54,579 nt of DNA, taken from assembly GCA_021785175.1 (NCBI GenBank), contig JAJYGH010000007.1, positions 1 through 54,579 on the forward strand, written 5' to 3'. The notes beneath the pieces were generated by a model. The model saw nothing but the letters and a program-made list of their open reading frames with translations, had not been told where the DNA came from and made no database searches. The stretch is from Chloroflexota bacterium. GTDB lineage: Bacteria > Chloroflexota > Limnocylindria > Limnocylindrales > CSP1-4. Below are positions 7,202 to 30,037 of this stretch, piece after piece. Within the stretch, counting starts at the first letter, position 1. The number at the start of each line of letters is the position of its first letter. The position numbers were made by a program, and so were the translations under genes.

Positions 7202-7211
7202 GAGGATGGTG

Positions 7212-10751: not shown

Positions 10752-10802
10752 CCGCGGAGAACCGCGACGCGGACATTCGTGAAACAACGTGGAGGCTTTT
10801 GA

Positions 10803-11866: not shown

Positions 11867-11876
11867 GCGTGTGAGC

Positions 11877-13514
11877 ATGTCGCCGCCCCGAGATCGCACG
11901 CTGGTCGCTGTCTGCTCGGACCTTGTCGAGGACGATCCCCCCGGACGGGTGGCTCCGGAGCCCATGGGCGGTCATCCGCAGGAGATGGTCGTGGGGGTAG
12001 TCCCGGGGCTATGTCGCCGACCAGACCTGGCGGCCGAGGCGGTCCGCAGTGTGGGGGCCCACAGCGCCGTCGTCGTGGTCTGCGGTGGCGGAGCTGACCT
12101 CGCCGCCTACCGGGGATGGATGCGCGACGAGACAGGTCCTGTCCCCGTCGAAGCCATCTACGCCGGCCCGGCGGCACCGCGCTGGCCCTGGCTGACTGGT
12201 CCGCGGACAGCGGTGGCCCGGGCGGTGCTGGCGGGAAAGGTCGCGAGGGTGCGGGTCCATCCCCGCATCGCCGGTGGCACCGTCCGCCCGACCGAGGTTG
12301 GGCTGCTGGACGTTGTGCGGGGCGGGCTGGGTCCGCCACCGGCGTCGGCCGCGATCAACCAAGCCCAGTGCCTCGGGTCGCATTGCCAGCTTTGCCTGCT
12401 GTCCTGCCATCCTGGGGCGCTTCGTGCCGGTCCGTCGGGTCGCGCGGAGGTAGGTGCGCGAGCCTGCGACGGATGCGGCGCGTGTGCGGTGGTGTGTCCC
12501 GCTGGGGCGATCAGCGTGTCAGGCGTTTCCCTCGCTGCCATTTCCGACGAGATGGGTGCGATCCTCGCCACCCTTGCGCCGTCACCTGAGCATGGTCCCG
12601 GCCGGTATGGCGTTCTCCTCCACTGCAGCACCCATTCCGAGGACGACTCGCGGCTCCAGTGGGAGGTGCCAGCAGACTGGGTTGTGCTGGCGGTGCCCTG
12701 TGTGACCATGGTCCAGCCCGGATGGTTGCTCGCGCTGCTCGCCCGGGGCGCCGATGCGGTCGGCGTTCTCGCGTGCTCGCATGCTGATGGCCAGATGCGC
12801 GGGTATGTCATCCGCGACCGCGTCGAGTTCTCTCAGCACGTGCTGCACGCGCTGGGCGACGTTCACGCCGACCGGCGCGTGTGGGTCAATGGCGCGGTCG
12901 CGCCTCACGGCAGCCAGGCACTGCCGAAGCTCCCGGATCTCGAGCCGCTCGTGCCGAGGCGCGCGGACCTCGGCCGGAGAGTCCCGCTGACGGAGCCCGC
13001 AGCGACCGCGGACGCTATCCGCCTCTTCGCGTCCGAGATGGGTACGAGCATGGCCTGGTCGATCACACATCGTGCATCGCCTGCTGGGACCGTCGAACTC
13101 GACGTCGACAAGTGCACGGTCTGCGGGGCGTGCGCGCGCGCGTGTCCAACGAACGCGCTGTCGATCGACCATGGCGGGGGGGGATGGGTCATGAGCTGGG
13201 ATGGCGCGTCCTGCGTTCCCTGCGGATTCTGTGGCGCCGTCTGCCCCGAGGGGGCCATCCGGGTTGATTCGCGGACGGACGCGACGCTGTTGCAGGTCGG
13301 CCGCACTGTCCTGCTGCACGATACGACACCCGTCTGCCCCAGGTGCGGCCGGCCCATGGCGAATCCCGCGATGGCAGACCGACTCCGCGAGCGGCTCGGC
13401 GTCGATGGCATCTTCCTCGACGCGGGCGTCCCCCGCTGTCCCGAATGCGACGCCGATGTCGTCACGCAGGTACCTCTGCAGCCGCGGCTGAGAGTCAGGC
13501 CAGCCGGTCCGTAG
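11877..13514 (+). CDS. multi-cluster Fe-S protein with MvhD/FlpD-like domain (HdrA-like, no FAD domain)
   Basis: A 545-aa cytoplasmic iron-sulfur protein. Cys-rich segments around residues 165-225 (CLGSHCQLCLLSC and CDGCGACAVVC) lead into a domain resembling MvhD/FlpD hydrogenase delta subunits (YGVLLHCSTH, VLAVPCVTM, GVLACSHADG). A paired ferredoxin domain follows (CTVCGACARAC; CVPCGFCGAVC), then two C-terminal CxxC pairs (CPRC, CPEC) that could bind zinc. HdrA-MvhD proteins route electrons between ferredoxin, heterodisulfide reductase and hydrogenase; here the flavin domain is absent. It is last in the molybdoenzyme unit, so it may bring cytoplasmic electrons to or from the respiratory enzyme (inference). 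GTG 11871 is an alternative start. Confidence 0.8.
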   Translation: MSPPRDRTLVAVCSDLVEDDPPGRVAPEPMGGHPQEMVVGVVPGLCRRPDLAAEAVRSVGAHSAVVVVCGGGADLAAYRGWMRDETGPVPVEAIYAGPAAPRWPWLTGPRTAVARAVLAGKVARVRVHPRIAGGTVRPTEVGLLDVVRGGLGPPPASAAINQAQCLGSHCQLCLLSCHPGALRAGPSGRAEVGARACDGCGACAVVCPAGAISVSGVSLAAISDEMGAILATLAPSPEHGPGRYGVLLHCSTHSEDDSRLQWEVPADWVVLAVPCVTMVQPGWLLALLARGADAVGVLACSHADGQMRGYVIRDRVEFSQHVLHALGDVHADRRVWVNGAVAPHGSQALPKLPDLEPLVPRRADLGRRVPLTEPAATADAIRLFASEMGTSMAWSITHRASPAGTVELDVDKCTVCGACARACPTNALSIDHGGGGWVMSWDGASCVPCGFCGAVCPEGAIRVDSRTDATLLQVGRTVLLHDTTPVCPRCGRPMANPAMADRLRERLGVDGIFLDAGVPRCPECDADVVTQVPLQPRLRVRPAGP

Positions 13515-14193: not shown

Positions 14194-14211
14194 GATCCAC
14201 CTCTCGCCCAA

Positions 14212-14272
14212 GGTAGAAGCCGTCAGCGGATGCGGGTCGTCGCGAGCGCGACGGGCGGGCTTCATCGCCGGT
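14212..14272 (-). promoter_or_regulatory. fluoride riboswitch 1 (crcB RNA motif), translational type
   Basis: Reading the minus strand, GGCGATGAAGCCCGCC (14269-14254) forms the GGCG/CGCC hairpin, and GCTGACGGCTTCTACC (3' half) supplies GGCTTC to pair with GAAGCC. This is the layout of the Thermotoga petrophila fluoride aptamer (GGGCGAUGAGGCCCGCC ... GCUGAUGGCCUCUAC). Between them is an extra CGTCGCG/CGCGACG stem. The conserved CTACCT can instead pair with AGGTGG of the ribosome binding site before GTG 14193. Fluoride binding, which holds CTAC in the aptamer, should then free translation. A -10-like CAGACT lies about 10 nt upstream. Confidence 0.88.
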
Positions 14273-14424
14273 GACCGGAGTCTGGTCGAGGCGCCGGCCG
14301 GAGCCTCTGTCACCCGGTCGGAGCCGACGGTTGTCGCACGCGAGCTTCTCGCGTGATTCGGTTGCCCGACGCATCGTACGGCGCGTCCGATTCCGGTGCC
14401 GATCAGGCCGCGCGCTACACTGGC

Positions 14425-14490
14425 GCTCGGCGATGAGGCTCGCCAGTCCGGGGCGACCCGGCGAATCCGCGGTGCGCTGACAGCCTCTGC
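14425..14490 (+). promoter_or_regulatory. fluoride riboswitch 2 (crcB RNA motif), translational type
   Basis: GGCGATGAGGCTCGCC (14429-14444) and GCTGACAGCCTCTGC (14476-14490) give the two conserved halves; GAGGCT pairs with AGCCTC. A -10 element TACACT is at 14416-14421. Downstream, GCCTCTGCAC (14483-14492) can form a 10-bp stem with GTGCGGAGGC (14499-14508). That stem contains the GGAGG ribosome binding site of the gene at 14512 and shares bases with the aptamer 3' strand: a clear on-switch. It lies back to back with riboswitch 1. Confidence 0.9.
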
Positions 14491-14511
14491 ACTCGATCGT
14501 GCGGAGGCGCC

Positions 14512-14877
14512 ATGCGAACCGGCATCCTCGATCCAACCCCACCCGGCACAGCCCTCTCGTCGGCCGGCCCTCGAGTTGCCCGAGCCAGGGCGGCGCGGCG
14601 TCGCGCGGCGCTGGCTCGTCGCCGGCGGCTCGTGCCGGTGGTTTCCGCACCCGCCCTGCCGGCGCGGCAGAGGCCGCGCGCGGCCGGCTCTCGTGGGCTC
14701 TCCGATGCCGAGATCGAGCGGCAGCTCGAGCACCTCGCGCGTGTGCTCGTGCGAACCATGCGTGCGGTCCCGATGCCCGGGGTGGCGCCACTCCGGCGTC
14801 GCGACTTGCTGTTGATCGCCGGGATCGTCGTGGCCGAGGCGCTCGTCGTCCTCCTGTTCGGCTGGGCGGCGCGATGA
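14512..14877 (+). CDS. small tail-anchored membrane protein under a fluoride riboswitch
   Basis: A 121-aa protein with a long Arg/Ala/Pro-rich N-terminal half, a helical stretch (LSDAEIERQLEHLARVLVRT) and a single C-terminal transmembrane segment (LLLIAGIVVAEALVVLLFGW), so it is probably tail-anchored with its body in the cytoplasm. The start ATG 14512 follows GGAGG (14503-14507), which lies in the switching hairpin of riboswitch 2. Its stop overlaps the next ATG. I recognise no family. Arg-rich spans in GC-rich DNA can be misleading, but riboswitch, RBS and overlap all support the gene. Confidence 0.8.
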   Translation: MRTGILDPTPPGTALSSAGPRVARARAARRRAALARRRRLVPVVSAPALPARQRPRAAGSRGLSDAEIERQLEHLARVLVRTMRAVPMPGVAPLRRRDLLLIAGIVVAEALVVLLFGWAAR

Positions 14878-15176
14878 GTGCAGGCAAGCCGGGGCGGGAT
14901 GCCTCGTCTGAGCCGCGGAGCACGGAATCCGAGGCGGCTCCCGCCCGGCCCGGCCGGTCCAGGCGCCATGTCCCGGGAACAGTGACGCTGCTCGCGGTCG
15001 GTCCCCAGGGCTGGGCGGTTGCCGAGCGCCGGATCGACCACCCGACCCCGATGATCGTCGCGGAGGTCGCAGATCAACTGCGGGCGGCGGTCCGCTCGGA
15101 CACCGGGTGGTTGCCGACGATCCTCGTGCTGGACGAGACGGGGGCGGACGTGAGCCGGCGCTATCCGGTCGACTGA
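14874..15176 (+). CDS. hypothetical protein, 100 aa, coupled to the preceding gene
   Basis: The ATG at 14874 overlaps the preceding stop (ATGA), so it is co-translated in the riboswitch-2 unit. After a polar N-terminus (residues 1-37) comes a compact strand-rich core: HVPGTVTLLAVGPQGWAVAE, then DHPTPMIVAEVADQLRAAVR and WLPTILVLDETGADVSRRYP. No signal peptide, Cys or metal motif is present. I do not recognise the family. The last two genes of this short unit are not large enough to be enzymes of known fluoride resistance. Confidence 0.8.
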   Translation: MSAGKPGRDASSEPRSTESEAAPARPGRSRRHVPGTVTLLAVGPQGWAVAERRIDHPTPMIVAEVADQLRAAVRSDTGWLPTILVLDETGADVSRRYPVD

Positions 15177-15180
15177 AGGC

Positions 15181-15208
15181 GCTGCCGGCGCGGTTGCGCA
15201 CCGGCAGC
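15181..15208. terminator. bidirectional hairpin terminator
   Basis: GCTGCCGG (15181-15188) and CCGGCAGC (15201-15208) form a perfect 8-bp stem with a 12-nt loop that can partly pair further (GCGC...GCGC). It sits between the convergent stops at 15176 and 15222 and could end both units; no strong U-run follows. Confidence 0.65.
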
Positions 15209-15221
15209 TCTCCCCGCTCGA

Positions 15222-15446
15222 TCAATCGGCGAGCGGCATCATCAGTCGTCGAAATGTCCGCAGGCTGTTGACCTCCCGTCCGAGGAGGACGGTCACCGCC
15301 CCACTCTGCGCAAGCTCATCGAGGCCCGCGCCGTCCACGACGCGCCAACCGTCTTCGCCAAAGCGGTCCAGGGCCGCCAAGAGCTCGTGTCCGGTGCCGC
15401 TCGCACCGACGCGCACGCGCTCGATTCTGTACTCGTAGCGTTCCAT
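15222..15446 (-). CDS. DUF4177-like small protein, 74 aa
   Basis: Begins MERYEYRIERVRVGASGTGH, then LLAALDRFGEDGWRVVDGAG and a short C-terminal part ending in positive residues. The pattern (YEY start, alternating strand, L-x2-L-x2-FG-x2-GW-x-VV) is that of DUF4177, small proteins of unknown function built on a strand-helix-strand core. ATG 15446 has AGGGG about 9 nt upstream. It lies downstream of the riboswitch-4 gene on the same strand but is separated from it by two strong inverted repeats, so it may have its own transcript. Confidence 0.8.
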   Translation of the reverse strand: MERYEYRIERVRVGASGTGHELLAALDRFGEDGWRVVDGAGLDELAQSGAVTVLLGREVNSLRTFRRLMMPLAD

Positions 15447-15499
15447 GCTCTATACCCCTGAAGCATCCGTTGCTGATCGCGCCGAAGGCGCCGGTCCAA

Positions 15500-15524
15500 A
15501 GGCATGCGTATCGAGTGCATGCCT
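15500..15524. repeat. inverted repeat upstream of the DUF4177-like gene
   Basis: AGGCATGC (15500-15507) and GCATGCCT (15517-15524) form an 8-bp palindrome with a 9-nt spacer, about 55 nt upstream of ATG 15446. It could be an operator or a leader hairpin. TATCGAG occurs at both 15509 and 15524. Confidence 0.6.
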
Positions 15525-15537
15525 ATCGAGAGAGGGC

Positions 15538-15573
15538 GGGCCCGGGGCACCTGTCGGGGCCAACCCCGGGCCC
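15538..15573 (-). terminator. 10-bp GC hairpin behind the 101-aa gene
   Basis: GGGCCCGGGG (15538-15547) pairs with CCCCGGGCCC (15564-15573) around a 16-nt loop. On the minus strand it follows the stop of the gene at 15631-15936 by about 58 nt and precedes the DUF4177-like gene, so it probably ends the riboswitch-controlled transcript. There is no U-run. Confidence 0.6.
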
Positions 15574-15630
15574 ATGTATGGGATGTGGCGCGTCAACGTC
15601 CCGAGGCGTCCTCGCCACTGTCACCCTGCG

Positions 15631-15936
15631 TCACGCAACCTCGTCGTCGACGTCATAGACGTTGTCGACAACGCGCGGCGGAACGAGGGGCTCCCGCCCG
15701 CCGATTCCGGGCGCCCAGCGCTGCCCGCCACTGTCGGCGACACCGCGGCCTGAGTACCCGTGCGGGCCGTCGGAGGCGAGGCGCTCCGAATAGGCCATCT
15801 GACCATCCGTCGGCGCGCTCTCGCCGGCCCACTGGAACTTCGTCCATTGCGACACGTCGGGCTCGGCCGACGTGTCGAGCCCGGGAAGCTCGCCCGCCCA
15901 TTGCGTACGATCCCACGCGATCCGCCGAAGATCCAT
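15631..15936 (-). CDS. orphan 101-aa QWAGE-repeat protein under a fluoride riboswitch
   Basis: I know no family for this protein. It is Trp/Gly/Asp-rich, polar and without a membrane segment or Cys, and it contains an internal repeat: WDRTQWAGELPGLDTSAE followed by WTKFQWAGESAPTDGQ. It ends acidic (VVDNVYDVDDEVA). The start ATG 15936 has a perfect AGGAGG 9 nt upstream. Its leader (from ~16127) carries a promoter, a fluoride aptamer and a terminator hairpin, so it is expected to be expressed only with fluoride. It is the sole gene clearly served by that riboswitch, so a direct role in fluoride response is likely (inference). Confidence 0.72.
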   Translation of the reverse strand: MDLRRIAWDRTQWAGELPGLDTSAEPDVSQWTKFQWAGESAPTDGQMAYSERLASDGPHGYSGRGVADSGGQRWAPGIGGREPLVPPRVVDNVYDVDDEVA

Positions 15937-16035
15937 TCCGCGAAACCTCCTGCGCCCTGGCCGAAGTCGCGGCCGGGGAACGTCCGCCCGCTGCGGCGAC
16001 GCCGCAGCGCGCTATGGCATGGGCGCAGGCGCACA

Positions 16036-16074
16036 GGAATCAAGACGGCTCCTGGAGCCATTGCCCCAGAAGCC
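16036..16074 (-). terminator. switch terminator of fluoride riboswitch 3
   Basis: On the minus strand, GGCTTCTGG (16074-16066) pairs over 9 bp with CCAGGAGCC (16055-16047) across a 10-nt loop, followed by GTCTTGATTCC. The 5' arm is the 3' strand of the aptamer, so aptamer and terminator exclude each other. The tail is only modestly U-rich. Confidence 0.8.
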
Positions 16075-16118
16075 ATCACCCATCAGGTGGGGTTTGGACG
16101 CGAGCTTCATCGCGTAGC
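16066..16118 (-). promoter_or_regulatory. fluoride riboswitch 3 (crcB RNA motif), terminator type
   Basis: Minus strand: ACGCGATGAAGCTCGCGT (16114-16097) gives the first hairpin and its GAAGC pairs with GCTTC. ACCCCACCTGATGGGTGATGG forms the second hairpin and enters the conserved TGATGGCTTCT. The whole matches the fluoride aptamer layout very closely. The terminator at 16036-16074 overlaps its 3' strand. It controls the 101-aa gene at 15631-15936. Confidence 0.9.
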
Positions 16119-16134
16119 CCTTCGGCCGCCGCGT

Positions 16135-16163
16135 ACCATAGACCGGCACCACCGGACTGTCAA
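16135..16163 (-). promoter_or_regulatory. sigma-70-type promoter of riboswitch 3
   Basis: Minus strand TTGACA (16163-16158), a 17-bp spacer and TATGGT (16140-16135), about 20 nt before the aptamer. Consensus -35 and ideal spacing make this the best promoter seen in the window. The remaining 16164-16384 stretch holds no gene I can support. Confidence 0.75.
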
Positions 16164-16384
16164 GACGGCCACAGGTGTGGACGGCCACAGGCGCAACGGC
16201 CCCGGTCCTGCATCGTTCGGTGGCTGCTTCTCTTCGCGTTCCTCTCGCTGCATCTCGTCCCGGACCTCCTGCCCGGATCTGGGCCGCCGACGATCTCATC
16301 CTGGCGGCAACGATCGTCCGCTGGTGCGGACGGCGCGGGTCTGACAACGGCGTCACGCCCCTGACTGGCATCGTTGGTCGGCGT

Positions 16385-16414
16385 TTGCCGGATGGAACCG
16401 GTCTGGGATAGACT
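16385..16414 (+). promoter_or_regulatory. promoter of the Ehr complex operon
   Basis: TTGCCG (16385-16390), an 18-bp spacer and TAGACT (16409-16414), ending 11 nt before the aptamer. The same TAGACT hexamer precedes riboswitches 5 and 7, which supports it as a shared -10 element of this organism. Confidence 0.65.
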
Positions 16415-16421
16415 CCCGGCT

Positions 16422-16494
16422 CGACGGCGATGGAGCCTCGCCGCGGCCCGTGATGGTCCGGACCGAAACCGCAGCGCGCTGCTGATAGCTCCTC
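16422..16494 (+). promoter_or_regulatory. fluoride riboswitch 4 (crcB RNA motif) of the Ehr operon
   Basis: GGCGATGGAGCCTCGCC (16426-16442) and GCTGATAGCTCCTCC (16480-16494) are the conserved halves; GGAGC pairs with GCTCC. An inserted GGTCCGGACC hairpin and the GCAGC/GCTGC stem lie between them, preceded by the AAACC typical of the motif. A CCCGAC/GTCGGG hairpin follows. The released CTCCTCC could pair with GGAGG (16533-16537) before the first gene, giving translational control (inference). No U-run terminator is seen. Confidence 0.9.
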
Positions 16495-16542
16495 CCCGAC
16501 ACGGTCGGGTCGAAGGACTGCAGTCGCACTGCGGAGGCATAG

Positions 16543-17502
16543 GTGAGTCTCGTCGCCCAGCAGGCGTGCCAGGTTCTGTTCGTCCTGGTGGCGTCCCCGC
16601 TCGTTCCCGGCGTGATCGACCGCGCGAAACACATCGTCCAGTCGAAGCGTGGCCCGAGCATCTTCCAGCCATATCGCGACCTCGCCCGGCTGCTGCGGAA
16701 GGGCAGCATCGTGCCCGAGGACTCGTCGTGGCTCTTCCGGGCCGCGCCCTACGCGGCATTCATCACGCCCCTCGCCGTCGCGATGCTGATCCCGGTGCTC
16801 ACGTCGTATCCTCTGCCGTTCGCGTTCATGGGGGACATGCTCTCCGGGGGCTTCATCCTCGGGCTCGGAAGCCTGCTCACCTCGATCGGCGCGCTCGACT
16901 CCGGGAGCGTCTACGCCGGGATGGGCAGCAGCAGATCGCGTGTCGTCTCCACGCTCGCCGAGCCGACTGTCCTGCTCGTGCTGTTCGGCGTGACCCTCTT
17001 CGCCCACGCCACGATCCCGTTCGTCGTGAACCAGACGCTGGCCGGCCCGACCCTGCTGCTCTCGGCGTCGCACTGGATGCTCGCGGGCGCTCTGCTCATG
17101 GTGATCCTGGCCGAGAGTGGGCGGATCCCCGTCGACAACCCTTCGAGTTCGTACGAGCTCTCGATGATCGAGCACTCGCGAACGTTCGAGTACTCGGGAC
17201 GGTGGCTGGCGCTGCTGCAGTGGGGCGGACAGATGCGCACGTTCGTCCTGCTGACGATCCTGCTGAACGTGCTCACGGTGCCATGGGGTCTCGTGCCTGA
17301 GGGGGCTGCCAGCGCCGGCACGCTGATCCTTGCGGCTGCCGCGCTGCTCGGCAAGATGGCGGTGGTTGCGGCGGCGATCGTCGTGATCGAGTCGACCGTC
17401 GCCAAGTGGCGGTTCTTCCGGATCCCGGAGTACCTCGGCGTCTCGCTGCTGTTGGCAGCACTCGGCACGATCGCTGCGTACGCGACGGGAGTCGCGGCAT
17501 GA
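16543..17502 (+). CDS. HyfC/HycD/NuoH-like membrane subunit of an Ehr-type complex
   Basis: A 319-aa integral membrane protein with about eight helices, homologous to NuoH and HycD/HyfC, the subunit that couples the peripheral arm to ion pumping. Seen: KRGPSIFQPYRDLARLLRKG (the conserved cytoplasmic loop) and ESGRIPVDNPSSSYELSMIE, the acidic-loop signature of this family. Start GTG 16543 with GGAGG 5 nt upstream, right behind riboswitch 4. It leads a seven-gene run with overlapping ends. Confidence 0.93.
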   Translation: MSLVAQQACQVLFVLVASPLVPGVIDRAKHIVQSKRGPSIFQPYRDLARLLRKGSIVPEDSSWLFRAAPYAAFITPLAVAMLIPVLTSYPLPFAFMGDMLSGGFILGLGSLLTSIGALDSGSVYAGMGSSRSRVVSTLAEPTVLLVLFGVTLFAHATIPFVVNQTLAGPTLLLSASHWMLAGALLMVILAESGRIPVDNPSSSYELSMIEHSRTFEYSGRWLALLQWGGQMRTFVLLTILLNVLTVPWGLVPEGAASAGTLILAAAALLGKMAVVAAAIVVIESTVAKWRFFRIPEYLGVSLLLAALGTIAAYATGVAA

Positions 17503-18143
17503 CCCTCCAGGCGCTCCAGATGCTCGAGGCCCTGCTCCTCCTGGCGACGCTGCGGACGGTGGGAGCCCACCGCCTCGCGGACTACATCGGCGGGTTCATC
17601 CTGCAGTCCGTGGTGCTGGCGGCGCTCGCCGTCCTGCTCGCTGCGAGTTCCGGCGCCGCCGACCTGGTAGTCGTCGCCGCCATGACGCTGGGCGCCAAGG
17701 TGTACCTGGTGCCGCGGATCCTGCGCCGCGTCGCAGCCGAGCTCCCCGTGGAACGGGGCGTGCGTTCGATGCTCGGGTTGCCTGCCTCGATCCTCGCTGC
17801 GATCGGGCTGTCGGTGCTGGCATTCCTCGGGACCTCCACCCTGGCCGAATCCGTCGGAGCGCAGGCCGGCTCGTTCGGCGTGTCGCTCAGCATGGTGCTG
17901 ATCGGGCTGTTCCTGATCACGGTTCGCCGCCACGTCGTGGCGCAGCTGGTGGGGCTGCTCACGATGGAGAACGGGACGTTCGCGGGCACGCTCGCGCTCG
18001 CGCCCCGCATGCCGTGGGTCATCGAGTTCGCGATCCTCCTCGACATCCTCGTCGCGGTCGTCGTGATGGGCCTGCTCATAACGCTGATCCACCGCGAGGT
18101 CGCGACCGCGGACACCGCCGCCCTGCGGCAACTCCGGGGGTAG
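17499..18143 (+). CDS. HyfE-like membrane subunit (NuoK-related)
   Basis: A 214-aa protein made almost entirely of hydrophobic helices (LEALLLLATLRTVGAHRLAD at the start; VIEFAILLDILVAVVVMGLL near the end). HyfE proteins are MrpC/NuoK-like subunits found in hydrogenase-4, Mrp-related and Ehr complexes. The length and GLLTMENGTFAGTLALAP, the family's conserved segment, match. The ATG overlaps the preceding stop (ATGA). Confidence 0.88.
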   Translation: MTLQALQMLEALLLLATLRTVGAHRLADYIGGFILQSVVLAALAVLLAASSGAADLVVVAAMTLGAKVYLVPRILRRVAAELPVERGVRSMLGLPASILAAIGLSVLAFLGTSTLAESVGAQAGSFGVSLSMVLIGLFLITVRRHVVAQLVGLLTMENGTFAGTLALAPRMPWVIEFAILLDILVAVVVMGLLITLIHREVATADTAALRQLRG

Positions 18144-18151
18144 GAACGTTG

Positions 18152-19624
18152 ATGATCCTGTTGCTGGCGATCGCCTCGATCGCGGCGGTCGCATCGTTTG
18201 TCGTTCCCCGGCGCGTCGCCGAAGTCGGCACCGTCGTGGCCACTCTGGCGGAGCTGGCCTGCGCGCTGCAGCTCAGCGCGCAGGTGCTGGCGTCGGGACG
18301 CATCGTCGAGCTCGACGACTGGCTCGCGGCCGACGGTCTCTCGGCGGTCGTGACGCTGATCACGGCGTTCGTCGGGGCGGCCGCCGCGATCTACTCGGTC
18401 GGGTATCTCCGCGAGGACATGCGCGAACGGGACCTCGACACGGGTTCCGCCCTCGCCGACCAGCGGCGGTACTACGGGCTGTTCCACCTGTTCCTGCTGG
18501 CCATGTTCGTGGTGAGCCTGACCGACAACCTCGGGCTCATGTGGGTCGCGATCGAGGCGGCCACGCTGGCGTCGCTGTTCCTCGTGAGCTTCTACGGCAC
18601 CCGAGAGGCCCTCGAGGCCGCCTGGAAGTACGTGCTGGTGGGATCGGTCGGGATCGCGCTCGCGTTGACCGGGACCGCCCTCGTCTATACGGCCGGCATC
18701 CGTGCGCTGGGCTCGTCGTACGACATGGTCTGGACCCGGATGGAGGCCGTCGCACCGCGTCTCGACGGCTCGATCATGCTGCTCGCGTTCGTCTTCCTGT
18801 TGATCGGCTACGGGACGAAGGCGGCGCTCGCGCCGATGCACACGTGGCTGCCGGATGCGCACAGCGAGGCACCGAGCCCGATCAGCGCGCTCCTCAGCGG
18901 CGTGCTCGTCACGGTCGCCATGTACGCGATCCTGCGCTTCTACGCGATCGCGGTTCCATCCGCGGGGCGGACGGGGATCGACGTACTGCTGCTCGGTTTC
19001 GGGCTGCTGTCGTTGCTCGTCGGCACCGGGTTCGTGCTGCGCCAGAGCGACTACAAGCGGCTCCTCGCGTACTCGAGCGTGGAGCAGATGGGCCTCGTCA
19101 GCATCGCGATCGCGTTCGGCGGACCGCTCGGCCTGTACGCCGCGATTCTCCAGATGATCGGCCACGCGCTCGCGAAGTCCCTGGCGTTCTTCGCCTCGGG
19201 ACACGTGCTGCTGCGCTACGAGACGCGTGAGGTCGACAAGGTGTCCGGAGCATTGCGGGCGCTGCCGTACAGCGGCGCCGCCCTGCTCCTCGGGGCGCTC
19301 GCGCTCTCCGGCGCTCCCCCGTTCGGCTTGTTTCCCAGCGAGGTGGCGATCGTGACGGCCGGGATCCGGGTCGGGCTGTGGCCGGCGGTTCTGGTGGTCG
19401 CCGCGTGCCTCGCGATCGTCTTTGTGGCCATCGTGGGAACGCTTGCCCGCATGCTGTTCGGGCGGCCGCCGTCCGACGTTCGGCGAGGGGAAGGCCCGTT
19501 GCTGGGTCTGGTCTCCCTCGCGGGCGTGGGGAGCATGCTCCTCGTGCTGGGCGTGTGGATCCCGGGTCCGCTCGACCAGCTGGTCCGTGCCGCGGTCGCG
19601 GCCATTGGCGGAGGGCAGGCGTGA
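18152..19624 (+). CDS. HyfF-like antiporter subunit (NuoN/L family)
   Basis: A 490-aa polytopic protein of the NADH-quinone oxidoreductase/MrpA-D antiporter family. Conserved parts: GLMWVAIEAATLASLFLVSF (with the membrane Glu), YGTKAALAPMHTWLPDAHSE and LLAYSSVEQMGLVSIAIAF. Such subunits carry the proton or sodium channel. ATG 18152 lies 8 bp after the HyfE stop; its stop overlaps the next gene. Glycines and lysines typical of the half-channels (YKRLLAYSS) are kept, so pumping is plausible. Confidence 0.92.
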   Translation: MILLLAIASIAAVASFVVPRRVAEVGTVVATLAELACALQLSAQVLASGRIVELDDWLAADGLSAVVTLITAFVGAAAAIYSVGYLREDMRERDLDTGSALADQRRYYGLFHLFLLAMFVVSLTDNLGLMWVAIEAATLASLFLVSFYGTREALEAAWKYVLVGSVGIALALTGTALVYTAGIRALGSSYDMVWTRMEAVAPRLDGSIMLLAFVFLLIGYGTKAALAPMHTWLPDAHSEAPSPISALLSGVLVTVAMYAILRFYAIAVPSAGRTGIDVLLLGFGLLSLLVGTGFVLRQSDYKRLLAYSSVEQMGLVSIAIAFGGPLGLYAAILQMIGHALAKSLAFFASGHVLLRYETREVDKVSGALRALPYSGAALLLGALALSGAPPFGLFPSEVAIVTAGIRVGLWPAVLVVAACLAIVFVAIVGTLARMLFGRPPSDVRRGEGPLLGLVSLAGVGSMLLVLGVWIPGPLDQLVRAAVAAIGGGQA

Positions 19625-21207
19625 TGCTGCATCCAGACGCCGATCCCGCACGCGTCCGGGGGCACAGCCGGGGCGGCGGCGCCACGTCGTTCTCGCGCAT
19701 TGAACCGCTCGCCGGCGCGATCCCGGTCTCGGCGACCGCCGAGCTCGAGCTCGAGGGCCTTGCCATCGCCGAATGGCCGGATCGCGTGCGTCGGCAGACA
19801 CACCGCGAGAGCGTGATGTTCGCCGACCTGTTCGGTACCGCGGATCCCGACGGCGGCGTCTCGCTGACGCTTCTCCTCAGCCTGCCGGACGGAGGGCGCT
19901 GGCTGGCGCTCCGCGACCGGATCGAGGCAGAGAGCACCTATCCGAGTCTTGTCGCCGGCGGCTTTCCCGCCGCCGAGTGGTACGAGCGCGAGATGCTCGG
20001 CTCGCTCGGCATCCACCCGGTCGGGCACCCCCATCCGGAGTCCCTGCTGCGGGGCGCGGCGCTCGCGAGCGCCGACATGGCGCGGTTCGCACCGCTTCCG
20101 GCGGGCGGGCACGTGGTCGACTTCCCGCTGGGTCCCGTCCGATCGGGCATCGTCGAGTCCGGCCACTACGGGATTCGCACCGTCGGCGAGGAGATCGTCG
20201 ACCTGCGCCTCCAGCTCGGGTTCAAGCACCGCGGCGTCGAGCAGATGCTGGCGGCGGTCGCGTGGCCCCTGGCGCCGCGCGTCGCGGAACGGATCAGCGG
20301 CACGGACGGCGTGGCACATTCGATGGCCGCGGCCGGCGCGCTCGAGCGGCTCCTCGGAGTCGACGTCCCGCTCCGCGCCCGCCAGCTGCGCTCGCTGTTC
20401 GGCGAGCTCGAGCGCCTCTACAACCACGCTGGATACCAGGCGGACCTGTGTGGGGCGACGGGGCTCGCGGTGGCACAGGCTCAGTTCGACATCCTGAAGG
20501 AGCAGATCCTGCGGCTCGCCGCGCGGATCGCCGGCCACCGATACCTGTTCGGGACGATCGTGGTCGGCGGCGTCGCGGACGACCTCGACGACGCGGCGCT
20601 GAACGACGTGCGGGACACCGTCCGGCCAGTACGTGACGCGTTCGAGGCGCTGATCGATCTGGTGGCCACGTCATCCTCCCACCAGGATCGGCTCCAGACG
20701 ACCGGCCGCCTCACGCTCGAGGAGGCGACTCGGTACGCCGTGGTCGGGCCGGTTGCGCGCGCCTCGGGCCTGGCCGTCGACGCGCGCCGGGACCACCCCT
20801 ACGCGGCGTACGACGCGCTCCGACCAACGCTCCATGTGGTCGATGGCGGAGACGCGGCCGCCCGCTCGCAGGTCCGCCTGGAGGAGGGCCTGGCGTCGGC
20901 AGACCTCGTGCTGGACCTCGTCGAGGAGCTGCGCGAATCGGCGCCGCTGCCCGCCCTGCCGTCACCTGCCTCGCGCACGCTCCCTGGGGACACGGTCGGC
21001 TTCGGATGGGCCGAAGGAGCACGCGGGACCGAGCTCCACTGGGTCGAAACAGACCGGGCGGGTGCGATCGGACGCTACCGCGTCCGCAGTGCTTCGTTCG
21101 CCTGCTGGCAGGCATTCGCGCGTTGCGTGCCCGGCGACAACATCCTCACCGACTTCCCGATCATCGAGCAGAGCTTCGGGCTCTCGTTCGCGGGCAGCGA
21201 TCGATGA
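19624..21207 (+). CDS. HyfG/HycE-like NuoC-NuoD fusion subunit lacking the Ni-Fe cysteines (Ehr type)
   Basis: A 527-aa fusion of a NuoC-like domain (about 1-160; GGFPAAEWYEREMLGSLGIH) and a NuoD/hydrogenase large-subunit domain. In [NiFe] hydrogenases two CxxC motifs bind the metal site. Here the N-terminal one reads ERISGTDGVAHS with Ser225 and Asp228 in place of Cys. The C-terminal one is FGLSFAGSDR at the very end, also without Cys. It therefore cannot be a [NiFe] hydrogenase; it fits the energy-converting-hydrogenase-related (Ehr) family between group 4 hydrogenases and complex I. The ATG overlaps the HyfF stop (TGATG); GTG 19621 is an alternative. Confidence 0.93.
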   Translation: MLHPDADPARVRGHSRGGGATSFSRIEPLAGAIPVSATAELELEGLAIAEWPDRVRRQTHRESVMFADLFGTADPDGGVSLTLLLSLPDGGRWLALRDRIEAESTYPSLVAGGFPAAEWYEREMLGSLGIHPVGHPHPESLLRGAALASADMARFAPLPAGGHVVDFPLGPVRSGIVESGHYGIRTVGEEIVDLRLQLGFKHRGVEQMLAAVAWPLAPRVAERISGTDGVAHSMAAAGALERLLGVDVPLRARQLRSLFGELERLYNHAGYQADLCGATGLAVAQAQFDILKEQILRLAARIAGHRYLFGTIVVGGVADDLDDAALNDVRDTVRPVRDAFEALIDLVATSSSHQDRLQTTGRLTLEEATRYAVVGPVARASGLAVDARRDHPYAAYDALRPTLHVVDGGDAAARSQVRLEEGLASADLVLDLVEELRESAPLPALPSPASRTLPGDTVGFGWAEGARGTELHWVETDRAGAIGRYRVRSASFACWQAFARCVPGDNILTDFPIIEQSFGLSFAGSDR

Positions 21208-21226
21208 GACCAGCGAGGACGTTCGC

Positions 21227-21589
21227 ATGCAACTGACCTGGCTCTGGCGCGGCCTCCGCACCGGTGTCCTGACCACTCGCTATCCAAGACGGCCCGAGAG
21301 GATGCCGGACGGGTGGCGCGGGACGGCCGTCCTGCAGCGCGACCAGTGCGTCGTCGAGGGCGCTCCTCCGTCATGCGTGACCGTGTGCCTTCCGCGCGCG
21401 CTGTCCGTCGAGGAGACCGGCGGTGATCGCCGGCTGCGCCTCGACCACGCCGCCTGCATCGCCTGCGGGCTGTGCGTCGCGGCCTGCCCGCGCGGCGCGC
21501 TCTCGATCTCCAACGAGTTCGAGCTTGCGGCATCCTCTCGAGCGCGCCTCATCAGCGAGCATCGTCCGAAGGGAGACCGGGCGGCATGA
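21227..21589 (+). CDS. HyfH/HycF/NuoI-like ferredoxin subunit with one altered cluster
   Basis: A 120-aa subunit that should carry two [4Fe-4S] clusters between the NuoB-like and NuoD-like subunits. The second motif is canonical (CIACGLCVAAC). The first reads DQCVVEGAPPSCVTVC: aligned to the CxxC...PPCVxVC form, the second Cys is Glu, leaving three Cys. The start ATG 21227 has GAGG about 8 nt upstream and lies 19 bp after the preceding gene; the stop overlaps the next ATG. The protein is shorter than E. coli HyfH. The altered site could hold a Glu-ligated or [3Fe-4S] cluster, or none. Confidence 0.88.
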   Translation: MQLTWLWRGLRTGVLTTRYPRRPERMPDGWRGTAVLQRDQCVVEGAPPSCVTVCLPRALSVEETGGDRRLRLDHAACIACGLCVAACPRGALSISNEFELAASSRARLISEHRPKGDRAA

Positions 21590-22128
21590 GCAGGACGGGG
21601 TTCCAGCTTCCGCTGCTCCCGGGCCGGTCGCCGAGTGAACCGCCGGATACCCAGGATCGCACGCGCGCGCTGGAGGCGAAGGGCGCATCGGAGCAGGTTG
21701 GCGCTCGGGTCAGACGGCTGTTCGGCGGGTCGTTCCACCTGCGCCACGTCGACGCGGGCTCGTGCAACGCCTGCGAGTCGGAGCTGAAGGCACTCGCCAA
21801 TCCCTACTACGACCTGCACCGGCTCGGGATCTTCATCGAGCCGTCGCCGCGTCACGCGGACGGCCTCATCGTGACCGGTCCGATCACCCTGCCCATGCGC
21901 GAGCCGCTCCTGCGCACCTACGAGGCGATGCCCGAGCCGCGCCTCGTGATCGCGGTCGGGACGTGCGCCTGCACCGGGGGGATCTTCGCCGGCAGCGAGC
22001 TCGTGGCCGGGCCGCTCGAACGTCTGCTGCCGGTCGACGTGTACATCCCGGGCTGCCCTCCCTCGCCGCTCACGCTGCTGCACGGGCTGCTGCTCGCGCT
22101 CGGCCGGGTTGAGGAGGCGCGGCGATGA
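21586..22128 (+). CDS. HyfI/HycG/NuoB-like small subunit
   Basis: A 180-aa subunit with the proximal cluster ligands of the NuoB/small-subunit family: GSCNACESE, GTCACTGG and PGCPPSPLTLL. It passes electrons to the cavity formed with the large subunit. All four Cys are kept although the Ni-Fe ligands of the partner are lost, so electron transfer to this site is probably still used, for example with quinone. It is flanked by ATGA overlaps on both sides. Confidence 0.92.
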   Translation: MSRTGFQLPLLPGRSPSEPPDTQDRTRALEAKGASEQVGARVRRLFGGSFHLRHVDAGSCNACESELKALANPYYDLHRLGIFIEPSPRHADGLIVTGPITLPMREPLLRTYEAMPEPRLVIAVGTCACTGGIFAGSELVAGPLERLLPVDVYIPGCPPSPLTLLHGLLLALGRVEEARR

Positions 22129-24215
22129 CTGGCATCCTGTTGCCCGCGATCCTCGGTCTCGACGTCGTCGCGATCGCCATCGCACTCGGTGTGCGTCCGC
22201 CCCTCGGCCGGCGGGTCGCACTCGGACTGCTGGCCATCGGCGGGATCCTGGCGGCGACGCTCGGAGGGTTCGTGCTCGCCGGGTCGGGCGGTCCCGGGTT
22301 CGTGCTCGACACGGGGCTTCCCACCGGGGCGCTGCACGTGTCGGTGGACCCCCTCGGAGCGCTGTTCCTCATCCTCGCCGGGCTCCTGACGGCCGCAGCC
22401 GCCGTGTACGCGGATGGCTACCTCGCACACACGGACGCGGGCGTGGTGCGCGCCCACGTGGCGGTGTTCGCACTGCTCGTAGCGGCAATCGTGTCCGTGC
22501 TGGTCGCCGCCGACGGCGTGGCCTTCCTGTTCGCGTGGGAGGTCCTCGCCTGGTCGGCCTACCTCGCCGTCATCCTCGACATCGACGACCCGCGCGTCGG
22601 CCGCGCCGCGTTCCTCATGCTGGCCGTGAGCGAGCTGGGGACCGCGGCGCTCCTCGCCGCGTTCGTCGTGCTCGGCGCCAACGGGTTCACGTTCCCCGCC
22701 ATGATCGCGCGGGGCGAGGCGCTCGACGAGCCGGTCCGGTCGCTCGTGTTCTGGGCGCTCGTCCTCGGCTTCGGCGCGAAAGCCGGGATCATGCCGCTGC
22801 AGCTGTGGCTGCCGGAGGCGCACCCGGCCGCACCGAGCCACGTGTCGGCGCTGCTCTCGGCGATCATCGTCGAGCTCGGCCTCTACGGGATCGTGCGGTT
22901 CGCGTTCGCCGCGCTCCCCACTCCCGAGATCTGGTGGGGCCCGGCCCTGACGGCCCTCGGCGCCGTGACTGCCGCCGTCGCGATCCTCTGGGCGCTCCTG
23001 CAGAACGACATCAAGCGCGTGCTCGCGTACTCGACCATCGAGAACGTCGGCCTGATCGTGGCCGCCCTTGGGCTTTCGGAGACGTTTCGCGCGGCGGGCC
23101 TCGCCGTCCTCGCCGCGCTCGCACTGGTCGCGGCGCTGTACCACGTCTCGACGCACGCCTTCGGCAAGGGTGTCCTGTTCCTCGCCGCGGGATCGGTCGA
23201 CCACGGGACCGGGACGCGGGACCTCGACCGGCTGGGAGGCCTCACGCGGCCGATGCCCGTCACGTCGGTGGCGATGCTGCTCGGTGTGCTGTCGGTGGCC
23301 GCGATCGCGCCGTTCGCGGGGTTCCTCAGCGAGTGGATGATCCTCGAGACGTTCCTCCAGAGCCCGGCCGTACCACTGCTCGGTTCCCGGCTGGTCCTGG
23401 TCGCGGCCGGCGCGGTGCTGGCGCTCACCGCTGCCACGGCCGTGCTCGCATTCGCGCGGCTGTTCGCGACCGGGTTCGTGGGTCGACCGAGGTCACGCGG
23501 CGCGCACGACGCCGTCGAGGCTCCCCGGTCCATGCGGTTCGGCATGGCGCTGCTGCTCGGGCCTCTCCTCGCGATCGGGGTGCTGCCGGCGCTCGCCCTG
23601 CCCCTCGTCGATCGCGCGGCCGCTGGCGTCGTCGGTCCCAGCGTGGCGATGCAGCTGATCCCGCCGCTGTTCGGCAACGCCGGTCCGTACGCCGCGCTCG
23701 TCGCGATCGGAGGTGCCACGTTCCGAGGCCTGCTGCCGGGCAACGGGCTCGTGATCATCCCCGCGCCTGGTCTCAGCACGATCGTCTCGCCGACCTACCT
23801 CGTGCTCTTCGAGGCCGGCTTCGTCGTCCTCACCGCGCTCGGCGTGCGGGCGATCCGGCGCCTCGGACGTGACCGCCGTGCCCCGGCTTGGGGCGGCGGG
23901 ATGAGTTGGCGGCATCCTGCCGCGCAATACACGGCCACGGCCTACGCGAATCCGCTGCGGCTCATCTTCGCGGCCCTGTTCCGGTCGAAGGCACTGCTGA
24001 GCGTGCCGGACCCGGCGGCCAGCGGCGGGAGCGGGGCGCTCGAGTACGAGCAGCAGGCGCCGCCGCCGCTCGAGCGCGAGCTGTACGCGCCGCTGCTCCG
24101 GTCCGTGAGCTGGTTCGCCGACAAGTTCAAGGTGCTGCAGTCCGGCGACACGAACGCCTACGTCGGGTACATCCTGCTCGTCGTCGTGCTCATCGTGCTC
24201 CTTCGTGTCCTCTGA
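22125..24215 (+). CDS. HyfB-like antiporter subunit (NuoL family)
   Basis: A 696-aa polytopic protein, the largest membrane subunit. Conserved parts: VSVDPLGALFLILAGLLTAA, FLFAWEVLAWSAYLAVILD (membrane Glu), GFGAKAGIMPLQLWLPEAHP, VLAYSTIENVGLIVAALGL and FPFxG-like APFAGFLSEW. A C-terminal extension with amphipathic region and a last helix (GYILLVVVLIVLLRVL) resembles the lateral helix region of NuoL/HyfB. The ATG overlaps the NuoB-like stop. In E. coli hyf this subunit comes near the operon start; here it ends the complex genes. Confidence 0.93.
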   Translation: MTGILLPAILGLDVVAIAIALGVRPPLGRRVALGLLAIGGILAATLGGFVLAGSGGPGFVLDTGLPTGALHVSVDPLGALFLILAGLLTAAAAVYADGYLAHTDAGVVRAHVAVFALLVAAIVSVLVAADGVAFLFAWEVLAWSAYLAVILDIDDPRVGRAAFLMLAVSELGTAALLAAFVVLGANGFTFPAMIARGEALDEPVRSLVFWALVLGFGAKAGIMPLQLWLPEAHPAAPSHVSALLSAIIVELGLYGIVRFAFAALPTPEIWWGPALTALGAVTAAVAILWALLQNDIKRVLAYSTIENVGLIVAALGLSETFRAAGLAVLAALALVAALYHVSTHAFGKGVLFLAAGSVDHGTGTRDLDRLGGLTRPMPVTSVAMLLGVLSVAAIAPFAGFLSEWMILETFLQSPAVPLLGSRLVLVAAGAVLALTAATAVLAFARLFATGFVGRPRSRGAHDAVEAPRSMRFGMALLLGPLLAIGVLPALALPLVDRAAAGVVGPSVAMQLIPPLFGNAGPYAALVAIGGATFRGLLPGNGLVIIPAPGLSTIVSPTYLVLFEAGFVVLTALGVRAIRRLGRDRRAPAWGGGMSWRHPAAQYTATAYANPLRLIFAALFRSKALLSVPDPAASGGSGALEYEQQAPPPLERELYAPLLRSVSWFADKFKVLQSGDTNAYVGYILLVVVLIVLLRVL

Positions 24216-24218
24216 CTC

Positions 24219-25970
24219 ATGTACCGGCGGATCGTCGTGGGTCTCGACGGGTCGGCGGCCGCCGCGAGCGCCGCCGACTACGCCGCGTCGCTCGCGCTGC
24301 TCCAGCATGGTCGAGTCACGCTCGTCTCGGTCGCGGAATCGGTCGCCCGGTTCGTCGGAAGCCGCAATCAGGCTGCGCGAGGCGCCCGCGAGGCGGTCGT
24401 TCGCCTCGAGGAGGCGCAGCGTTCGGCGGTTCTCCGGACGCGCCGACGCGGCGTCGAGGTCGAGGCCGTGGTCCGTCGCGGCGTCCCACGCGAGGAACTG
24501 CTCAGGGCCGTCGAGACGTTCTCGGCCGATCTGCTCGTGGTCGGGCGGTCGACGGGACAATCCGGCGGCGGCCTCGGGTCCGACGCGGCGCACCTGTCCC
24601 GCGACGCGTCCTGCTCAGTCCTGTTGATCCCGGAAGCAGCCAGCGTACCTCCGGCGCGCATGGTCATCGGGTATGACGGGTCGCCCGCGGCGGCGCAGGC
24701 GCTCGAGGTCGGGCGATCGCTGGCGACGGCATACGGCGCGCGGCTCATCGTGGCCGTCGCGGCGCAGGCCGCCTCGGAGCCCTGGAGCCGGTCGGCGGGC
24801 CTGCCGGCCGCGGGCACGACGCAGCGTCGCATCTCCGTGGTCGAGCTGCGCGGCGAGCCGGCGCCGGCGATCCTCGAAGAGGCTCGCCGGGATGACGTGC
24901 AGCTGATCGTGCTCGGATCGACGGGCGTGCGGCACCCCTGGGGGCGAGACCTGGGCGGGACCGCGGCGCGGGTGGCCAGGGATGCCCGCGTTTCCGTCCT
25001 CATCGTCCGCCTTCCGACGATTGCCCGGACCGTCAGCGAGCTCATGCGGCGAGACGTCGAGACCGTGTCGCCGGACACGAAGGTCCGCGACTCCACCGCG
25101 CTGCTCCTGGAACGCGGCATCAAGAGCCTCCCCGTCATCGATGCCGACGGTCGTGTCGTCGGCATCGTCACGCTCGGCGACCTGCTCCGGCGCGCAGGCG
25201 TGTCGATGCGGCCGAGCTTCGTCGGTGGCATCGCGGAGGGGGGCATGGCGGAGTACCTGGGGGGGCTCGGCTCCCGCGACCGCACCGTCCGGGAGATCAT
25301 GAGTCACCAGGTCGTCACCATCGAGCCAGAGCGGCCGGCCACCGAGGCTGTCGCGCTCCTCGGGAAGCATCGCGTCAAGCGACTTCCCGTCGTGGCGGCG
25401 GATGGGCGCCTGATCGGGATCGTCTCCCGTGCGGACCTCCTGCGCGGCGTCACCGGCATCGTGGAACACGACGACGTCACCATGCGCCGCGCGATCACCG
25501 GCACCATCGCCGCAGACATCATGCAGCACGCCGTGCCGACGGTCTCGACCGGCGCGTCACTCGAGGAGGCGGCTCGGGCAGTGCTCACGTCCTCAGTCGG
25601 TCGCGTTGCCGTGGTGGACGACCAGGAACGCGTCGCCGGCGTGATCTCGACACGGGACCTGCTGCCGCTCGCAACCGGGCACTCGTTCCGCCAGCTGCTC
25701 GACGCGCTCGGGCCGGCGGCCGCGCCGCGGGAGTCCTTCCTCGCGAGCCTTGGACGGCGGGCCGACGGCGCCCGGGCCATGGACCTGATGCGGCGGAACG
25801 TGATCACCGTCCCGCCGGACGCCTCGCTCGATCACGTGCTGCGCGTGATGATGACGCGTGGCCTGAAGCGGCTCCTGGTCGCCGATTCGTCGCGCCGGTT
25901 GGTCGGCGCCGTTGACCGGGCGGACATCATGCGGTGCATCGCGCCGGCGCTGGGTACCGAAACGAGGTAA
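24219..25970 (+). CDS. universal stress protein with tandem Usp and four CBS motifs
   Basis: A 583-aa cytoplasmic protein. Two Usp domains (about 1-135 and 145-262) show the ATP-binding G-rich loops LVVGRSTGQSGGGLGSD and IVLGSTGVRHPWGRDLGGTA. Four CBS motifs follow, beginning SELMRRDVETVSPDTKV, REIMSHQVVTIEPERPA, ADIMQHAVPTVSTGASL and MDLMRRNVITVPPDASL, making two Bateman modules that bind adenine nucleotides. It starts 3 bp after the Ehr genes, so it is part of the riboswitch-4 transcript and may adjust the complex to cell energy state (inference). Confidence 0.9.
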   Translation: MYRRIVVGLDGSAAAASAADYAASLALLQHGRVTLVSVAESVARFVGSRNQAARGAREAVVRLEEAQRSAVLRTRRRGVEVEAVVRRGVPREELLRAVETFSADLLVVGRSTGQSGGGLGSDAAHLSRDASCSVLLIPEAASVPPARMVIGYDGSPAAAQALEVGRSLATAYGARLIVAVAAQAASEPWSRSAGLPAAGTTQRRISVVELRGEPAPAILEEARRDDVQLIVLGSTGVRHPWGRDLGGTAARVARDARVSVLIVRLPTIARTVSELMRRDVETVSPDTKVRDSTALLLERGIKSLPVIDADGRVVGIVTLGDLLRRAGVSMRPSFVGGIAEGGMAEYLGGLGSRDRTVREIMSHQVVTIEPERPATEAVALLGKHRVKRLPVVAADGRLIGIVSRADLLRGVTGIVEHDDVTMRRAITGTIAADIMQHAVPTVSTGASLEEAARAVLTSSVGRVAVVDDQERVAGVISTRDLLPLATGHSFRQLLDALGPAAAPRESFLASLGRRADGARAMDLMRRNVITVPPDASLDHVLRVMMTRGLKRLLVADSSRRLVGAVDRADIMRCIAPALGTETR

Positions 25971-29950: not shown

Positions 29951-29971
29951 GACGCTCCACCTCGCCCTCGA

Positions 29972-30037
29972 AGTAGAAGCCGTCAGCGGCCGCTGGCCGC
30001 GGTGGGAACCGTCCTGGTGGCGGGCCTCATCGCCGTG
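29972..30037 (-). promoter_or_regulatory. fluoride riboswitch 5 (crcB RNA motif) of the pyrophosphatase operon
   Basis: Minus strand: GGCGATGAGGCCCGCC (30034-30019), almost identical to the T. petrophila aptamer 5' half, then GCGGCC/GGCCGC stem and CCGCTGACGGCTTCTACT. A -10 TAGACT is at 30049-30044. Downstream, CTACTTC (29975-29969) can form a 7-bp stem with GAGGTGG (29962-29956), hiding the ribosome binding site of the 83-aa gene; the aptamer fold would release it. Confidence 0.9.

Follow-up and report, generated by a model that had tools for sequence, protein, structure and literature searches.

A fluoride aptamer precedes an Ehr-type complex without [NiFe] ligands in a Chloroflexota bacterium

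A 54,579-nucleotide stretch of DNA from a Chloroflexota bacterium (contig JAJYGH010000007.1; the whole stretch is hereafter the window) carries seven hyf-like genes – the ehr operon – directly behind an aptamer of the fluoride riboswitch class. The operon probably encodes a fluoride-induced ion transporter of the Ehr type, in which the [NiFe] site has been dismantled, and not a hydrogenase or formate hydrogenlyase. The large subunit lacks every [NiFe] ligand, and the same combination of ligand loss, gene order and upstream aptamer recurs in a single clade of complexes found in at least six phyla.

The ehr operon and its aptamer

A preliminary description of this DNA had proposed a seven-gene Hyf-like set, and the reading frames bear it out: on the + strand the order is hyfC-hyfE-hyfF-hyfG-hyfH-hyfI-hyfB (16543-24215), the genes overlap or are close-set, all are open and coding-like, and Pfam or NCBIfam models match all seven products. 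The membrane subunits comprise the NuoH-like HyfC (16543-17502; 319 aa; PF00146, 97.5 bits), whose closest solved chain is subunit 4 of formate hydrogenlyase (7z0s; E 4e-30), the NuoK-like HyfE (17499-18143; 214 aa), and two antiporter-like proteins, HyfF (18152-19624, start ATG 18152; 177 bits) and HyfB (22125-24215; 696 aa), both of which match PF00361. HyfE matches the hydrogenase 4 membrane subunit model at E 5e-25 and HyfB the subunit B model at E 8e-157, each under its model's cut-off. The remaining genes encode the NuoCD-like large subunit HyfG (19624-21207; phmmer E 2.3e-49 to HycE of 7z0s), the NuoI-like ferredoxin subunit HyfH (21227-21589) and the NuoB-like HyfI (21586-22128; PF01058, 103 bits). 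An eighth gene, missing from the preliminary description, closes the operon: a universal stress protein with two Usp and four CBS domains (24219-25970; PF00582 and PF00571), which starts 3 nt past hyfB and is found after hyfB in two further loci (L084 and L089). Neither HyfA, HyfD, HyfJ or formate dehydrogenase, nor the NADH-module genes NuoE/F/G, are among the open reading frames of the operon.

HyfG retains none of the four [NiFe] cysteines, reading SDSG in the columns where hydrogenases read CCCC. Ser225 and Asp228, as previously reported – the numbering is exact if ATG 19624 is the start – replace the first CxxC pair of group 4 hydrogenases (motif ERISGTDGVAHS), and at the C-terminus SFGLSFAGSDR stands in place of DPCxxCTDR, with Ser and Gly at the ligand positions. 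The C-terminus had also been called Cys-free; this holds for the ligand positions but not for the protein, since Cys495 and Cys502 (numbered from GTG 19621) are present, neither at a ligand position. The column of the NuoD quinone-site Tyr holds Gly. HyfI does keep its cluster, with the four N2 cysteines intact (CNAC, C and C; CCCC at the ligand columns), while HyfH has one complete [4Fe-4S] motif (CIACGLCVAACP) and a degenerate second.

The aptamer (16417-16501, +) matches RF01734 at 32.2 bits (E 3e-7 in a local scan, 4.2e-5 across the whole window), and P1, P2 and the pseudoknot are all present in the 5′ leader. TAGACT, noted earlier as its -10, lies 11 nt 5′ of it: the hexamer, -10-like by consensus likeness only, precedes GGCGATG by 11 nt, and together with a probable transcription start region spans 16394-16425. 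TAGACT, CAGACT or TACACT (zero to two changes) stand ahead of several of the window's other aptamer matches; because the spacing varies from 7 to 11 nt, looking for TAGACT and an aptamer at a set distance returned chance matches only. Downstream, the predicted expression platform (16502-16542) includes the Shine-Dalgarno sequence GGAGG, whose first bases pair with the 5′ strand of P2 when the aptamer is unfolded (computed pairing probability 0.97-0.99 for the first two). Platforms of this kind imply that the ehr aptamer, and several of the other copies, would act as ON switches.

A covariance model built from 12 aligned aptamers with the window ehr copy left out (R1) recovers that copy at 22.9 bits. 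Across the 12 aptamers, standard pairs fill 95.4% of the cells in P1 and the pseudoknot; sliding one strand lowers this to 41-55%. The two elements show 14 double-sided changes, and both covary. Aptamers of orthologous ehr operons score 38.3-41.9 bits with RF01734, above its cut-off, and up to 58.1 bits in a plasmid island.

Conservation of the aptamer and erosion of the cofactors

The aptamer is conserved ahead of nearly all orthologous operons, in line with the preliminary description. Searches of the window's own family (107 genomes) found, besides the window operon, only relatives whose operons begin with hyfB (B-first) and carry ERACGVC...FELCYACTDR, or more distant group 4 or NuoD-like genes. 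A search of the phylum revealed Cys-less orthologs, 50-55% identical, in other families; gene order is unchanged in these, and an aptamer is present wherever upstream sequence exists. We then scanned a HyfC alignment against 84,980 species genomes, which gave 80 loci from Chloroflexi, Planctomycetes, Bacillota (many of them Sulfobacillus and metagenome-assembled genomes, MAGs), Actinomycetota, Dormibacterota and Pseudomonadota. We excluded two (L180, which is B-first, and L173, with no upstream sequence), and in 76 of the remaining 78 loci, all beginning with hyfC (C-first), a same-strand aptamer lies within 300 nt 5′ of hyfC.

These counts were made with R1, and copies that R1 missed or scored weakest were checked with Rfam; six R1 matches of 16-20 bits rest on R1 score and position. 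A regular expression for the aptamer had missed divergent copies, and R1 with Rfam took its place. R1 is itself biased toward window-like copies – it missed six C-first aptamers that Rfam found at 35-42 bits – and negatives were scored with Rfam. Since L104, L106, L108 and L114/L129 repeat contigs of the R1 training set, somewhat over 70 loci are independent of training. In Desulfotomaculum copahuensis (L109) a 46-bit aptamer stands ahead of a dynamin gene that precedes hyfC; in L110 the first operon has a weak match (13.7 bits) that Rfam does not confirm, and a 41.7-bit aptamer lies before a second hyfC. As a negative control we took 27 whole genomes with a B-first operon that keeps the four [NiFe] cysteines (4-Cys), two of them known only from HyfG matches: the Rfam model found no aptamer at that operon in any of them, whereas 14 have aptamers elsewhere (20 matches in total). 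An idealised comparison of 78/78 with 0/27 gives a Fisher p of about 1e-25, which is only a guide because the loci share descent and because the first figure is really 76 (77 if L109 is counted).

The association extends to plasmids. Aptamers of 47-56 bits lead the plasmid-borne C-first Cys-less operons of Burkholderia cenocepacia, B. multivorans and Caballeronia, and in Mycobacterium branderi a 41-bit aptamer precedes a NUDIX gene that leads the ehr unit. By contrast, no aptamer occurs on the plasmids that carry a B-first Cys-less Ehr in Allomeiothermus and Methylovirgula, and the one on the Rhodococcus plasmid lies far from the operon. An Alicyclobacillus plasmid (L198, 8821-10317) carries a solitary Cys-less hyfG behind its own 47-bit aptamer, with no other genes of the complex nearby.

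In a quick maximum-likelihood analysis of 69 large subunits, the C-first Cys-less rows, 41 in number, form one clade (SH-like approximate likelihood ratio support, SH-aLRT, 99), with the B-first Cys-less Ehr as sister (93; joint node 90); further out lie the B-first 4-Cys relatives (97), followed by E. coli HyfG/HycE and NuoD. This places the large subunit outside the catalytic [NiFe] hydrogenases, in agreement with the preliminary description. In the examples examined, the sister Cys-less group has no aptamer at its operon; the metal site was therefore lost, and fluoride control acquired, in separate events.

Within the C-first clade, cofactors and channels have fared very differently. None of the four [NiFe] cysteines survives in 86 of 87 large subunits, and the last keeps a single Cys. 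In the region between G and I (n=79), a ferredoxin motif is missing from 40 members, reduced to CxxCxxC in 25 and present as one complete copy in 14; the two complete motifs seen in E. coli HycF/HyfH occur in none of the 79. The N2 cysteines are entirely gone in five records from three lineages (a second Chloroflexota operon, L166 and M. branderi). Meanwhile E158, K246, K365 and E420 of HyfF (alignment numbering) are invariant or nearly so, and K223, K352 and E407 of HyfB are invariant in the 27 C-first members compared. HyfC shows clade-specific Arg/Glu changes in one loop, which we take, from its position in complex I, to be the counterpart of the one that in relatives looks onto the active site.

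Caution is warranted in reading this decay as particular to the clade. Most B-first 4-Cys relatives likewise carry a single complete ferredoxin motif, and five B-first loci (L090-L093 and L097) keep four [NiFe] cysteines while having lost most or all of the N2 cysteines, an odd state for a hydrogenase; part of the decay thus predates the clade or runs parallel to it. Two further 4-Cys relatives (L051 and L053) have the second ligand changed to Asp (CGVD) and are possible intermediates in ligand loss.

Function and rival explanations

Ehr complexes share with the window complex group 4-like and antiporter-like subunits, a NuoB/NuoI/NuoCD-like arm and the absence of [NiFe] cysteines (PMC6349859, PMC10284858), and the window operon shows both the missing cysteines and antiporter-like membrane subunits with channel residues. 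It differs from other Ehr in its order (hyfC first, hyfB last), its fluoride riboswitches, its place in fluoride islands and, in some members, the loss of Fe-S clusters as well; none of the three sister B-first plasmids searched has an aptamer at the operon. E. coli formate hydrogenlyase-1 and -2 (Hyc and Hyf; 7z0s) are the closest solved relatives of HyfG and HyfC, but the window complex departs from them in gene order (C-E-F-G-H-I-B) and in lacking the [NiFe] ligands, HyfA/D/J and a formate dehydrogenase partner. Respiratory complex I (NuoB-CD-H-I-K-L/M/N) has homologous subunits, the N2 cluster and the antiporter channels; the operon differs in having no NADH-module genes and in the change of the NuoD quinone Tyr to Gly.

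The crcB motif was seen before 'formate hydrogen lyase' genes by Weinberg in 2010 (PMC2864571), and Baker in 2012, as cited in a 2024 review, also treats this association (PMC11139923). In the review, 'formate hydrogen lyase' appears as one of the enzymes most often linked to fluoride riboswitches, with ATP production in fermentation as the explanation (PMC11139923). The complexes that we find in this association form one Cys-less clade, and the fermentation reading is unsupported. While the link has thus been known since 2010, its identity as a Cys-less clade appears to be new; within the open-access literature we found nothing joining fluoride riboswitches with Ehr, the function of which is stated as only proposed or not known (PMC6349859, PMC10284858).

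According to the review, HF reduces both proton motive force and cytoplasmic pH, and Na+/H+ antiporters come next after exporters in frequency among riboswitch-linked classes (PMC11139923). We suggest that HF (hydrogen fluoride) diffuses in and cytoplasmic fluoride rises, upon which the aptamer would fold and expression be released. From the seven subunits a membrane complex for ion transport would form, with two antiporter-like proton channels, and the export of protons – or the exchange of a cation for them – would most likely offset acidification and the loss of proton motive force, alongside resistant or extra copies of fluoride-inhibited enzymes. The driving force could be a short redox step from ferredoxin to N2 or a pre-existing ion gradient.

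Several observations weigh against a fluoride-induced Ehr-type transporter. The window aptamer scores below the Rfam gathering cut-off of 34 bits, for which reason it is missed at default settings; at that threshold Rfam gives no match in the window, and a relaxed search was required. No clear terminator follows it. Of 82 C-first HyfI copies, 70 have an intact set of N2 cysteines, a sign that redox chemistry still matters in most members. Moreover, the survey was seeded with Cys-less HyfC sequences and recovered a clade of single origin, so that the aptamer link counts as one evolutionary association, maintained through descent and transfer, rather than many independent gains.

Could the GC richness of the genome have produced the aptamer matches by chance, with the operon in fact constitutive? 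The low score of the window copy is what such a view has in its favour, but position-conserved aptamers at 76 of 78 loci in several phyla, many above the cut-off, together with the compensatory changes in P1 and the pseudoknot and the clean negative control, make it barely credible. We consider it equally far-fetched that the operon encodes a genuine formate hydrogenlyase or hydrogenase-4 whose induction belongs to a fermentation shift under fluoride, as reviews would have it. The best-matching NCBIfam models are indeed hydrogenase 4 subunits ('hydrogenase 4 subunit B/E/F') and the literature does speak of formate hydrogen lyase (PMC11139923) – confirming the guess that annotation pipelines would use these names – and the window's own genome encodes HypD elsewhere. 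However, with no [NiFe] ligand left the explanation is contradicted, and the partner genes are missing from the operon. HypD, too, was not found in 28 of 37 genomes carrying the C-first complex, many of them incomplete MAGs; in those 28 hosts [NiFe] centres are probably not built.

That the complex itself moves fluoride (F-/H+ or HF export) in place of CrcB is unlikely. It would account for the failure to find CrcB in the window's own genome (92% complete) and in 25 of the 38 genomes searched (37 with the complex plus one B-first Asgard genome), and the Arg/Glu changes in the HyfC loop could be read in its favour; yet MAGs are incomplete, and CrcB and a chloride-channel gene adjoin ehr on a Burkholderia plasmid. 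To our knowledge no member of the complex I/group 4 superfamily carries a halide. The CLC gene of the window's own genome was considered as the fluoride exporter and rejected, as its GREGP motif does not mark it as the F- type.

A more serious contender, which we place somewhat short of an even chance, is a redox-driven pump of the Mbx or complex I type: electrons would pass from a soluble donor (ferredoxin) to the HyfH cluster, to N2 and to an acceptor near the former [NiFe] cavity, protons would be pumped and proton motive force rebuilt under fluoride stress. As one of the two driving-force options of the fluoride-induced transporter, it overlaps with that reading in the confidence that we assign. 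It gains from the intact N2 cysteines of the window and of most members, from the complete motif in HyfH and from the coupling of redox to ion transport proposed for Ehr (PMC6349859). Against it stand the 40 of 79 members without a ferredoxin motif, the three lineages without N2 cysteines, M. branderi among them, the Gly at the quinone-site Tyr, and an operon without a candidate acceptor or partner oxidoreductase. Judged from sequence, the clade-wide Fe-S decay favours weak or absent redox coupling, even though the window copy still has N2 and at least one [4Fe-4S] cluster motif, and the erosion in sister complexes leaves a redox-driven pump less certain than the preliminary description implied. 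In many members the cluster loss argues against an unbroken electron wire.

Loss of the [NiFe] ligands throughout, of ferredoxin motifs in about half of the members and of N2 in three lineages, with both channels kept, is the basis for a bolder proposal that we hold only tentatively and consider rather less than probable: that one branch of the complex I/group 4 superfamily has been remodelled into an ion transporter that is dedicated to fluoride stress and works largely without redox chemistry, and that this is the 'formate hydrogenlyase' commonly cited in the fluoride regulon. The recurrence of the aptamer with the complex across many phyla suggests that the so-called formate hydrogenlyase is indeed an ion transporter serving in fluoride stress. 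Whatever the driving force, complexes without a [NiFe] site cannot be hydrogenases and the fermentation explanation of the 2024 review needs revisiting. Ehr gains a clear physiological cue, fluoride, and the clade provides, ready-made, a range of complex I relatives that keep their proton channels as their redox parts erode, on which ideas about what drives ion transport in this superfamily can be tested.

Fluoride islands in the window and elsewhere

The ehr aptamer does not stand alone: the window holds seven aptamer matches, one of them weak, and six were absent from the preliminary description. Divergent from the ehr operon is a second copy (16060-16123, -; RF01734 30.7 bits), with a TTGACA-17-TATGGT promoter match upstream and a terminator-like hairpin that overlaps the pseudoknot strand. 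A third (14207-14278, -; RF01734 26.5 bits; R1 64.3 bits, this copy being in the R1 training set) lies before a Zn-ribbon/HEAT gene (13777 to about 14190, -) and is syntenic in congeners, and a fourth (14420-14496, +; R1 45.8, RF01734 18.1 bits), with a hairpin over the Shine-Dalgarno sequence, before a small membrane protein gene (14512-14877) and 14875-15176. Further along, one aptamer (29967-30043, -; RF01734 26.2 bits) precedes dnaJ-like and inorganic pyrophosphatase genes (28352 to about 29710, -; PF00226 and PF00719), and another (30480-30549, +; R1 41.5 bits) a NUDIX gene (about 30595-31032; PF00293). The weak match (38762-38839, +; R1 24.7 bits), in which the conserved GATG reads GGTG, lies before a DUF6062-like reading frame and an MFS transporter (39595-40881), homologues of which adjoin aptamers in congeners. 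Dynamin and USP-CBS genes also lie under or near window aptamers. The predicted platforms vary: terminator-like hairpins would use the pseudoknot strand at 16123 (-) and 30480 (+), the latter a perfect terminator hairpin with a 14-bp stem and T tract, while pairs covering the Shine-Dalgarno sequence are predicted for the aptamers at 14420 (+), 14278 (-) and 30043 (-).

Four congeners (L219, L222, L223 and L224) share the genes that flank the island in the window – those for HEAT, the small membrane protein and metallophosphatase, with dynamin in one – but lack the ehr/USP-CBS unit (window 15177-25970); the flanks lie about 0.2-0.6 kb apart, against 11 kb in the window, and resemble an empty site. 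The unit was therefore gained in the window lineage or lost in the congeners. Mis-binning of the contig is ruled out by its polA, 78-91% identical to that of congeners.

Similar islands occur elsewhere. On the B. cenocepacia and B. multivorans plasmids (L201 and L208) dynamin, pyrophosphatase and DUF190 genes accompany ehr under 10-11 above-cut-off aptamers each, and the B. cenocepacia plasmid is the one that has CrcB and a chloride-channel gene beside ehr. The 10-11 aptamers fall within about 31 kb; both hosts are clinical isolates, and one plasmid is conjugative. In M. branderi, enolase, DUF190, NUDIX, MFS and Usp genes surround ehr. There is a clear parallel with the Enterobacter cloacae FRM island GI3, which confers resistance and which fluoride induces through a riboswitch, the first three genes by about 100-fold (PMC5533749). 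GI3 shares a riboswitch-controlled pyrophosphatase, universal stress protein, enolase and CrcB, and its horizontal acquisition was inferred (PMC5533749); it differs in that one riboswitch was reported and no Ehr named, whereas the islands described here have up to 11 aptamers together with Ehr.

Elsewhere in the window, at 4379-13514, lies an electron-transport cluster of molybdopterin oxidoreductase, Fe-S, NrfD, MoeA and TorD/nitrate-reductase-delta-like genes, on which no aptamer was detected; the Mo oxidoreductase (4379-7201) belongs to this separate NrfD-type cluster and not to the ehr operon. Other aptamers in related loci lead sequences read as enolase, phosphoglycerate mutase-like, MFS and HEAT proteins and a MutS pair. 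Such a pair is also found in the window's own 2.7 Mb genome, where the one further Rfam match (C63, the locus L007) lies directly 5′ of two genes read as MutS-family on the strength of their sequence and of 41-58% matches to genes, one of them annotated MutS. The pair, which resembles DNA-repair proteins, recurs under aptamers, or at the end of ehr operons, in L007 and in L103, L137, L140, L141, L146, L171 and L178.

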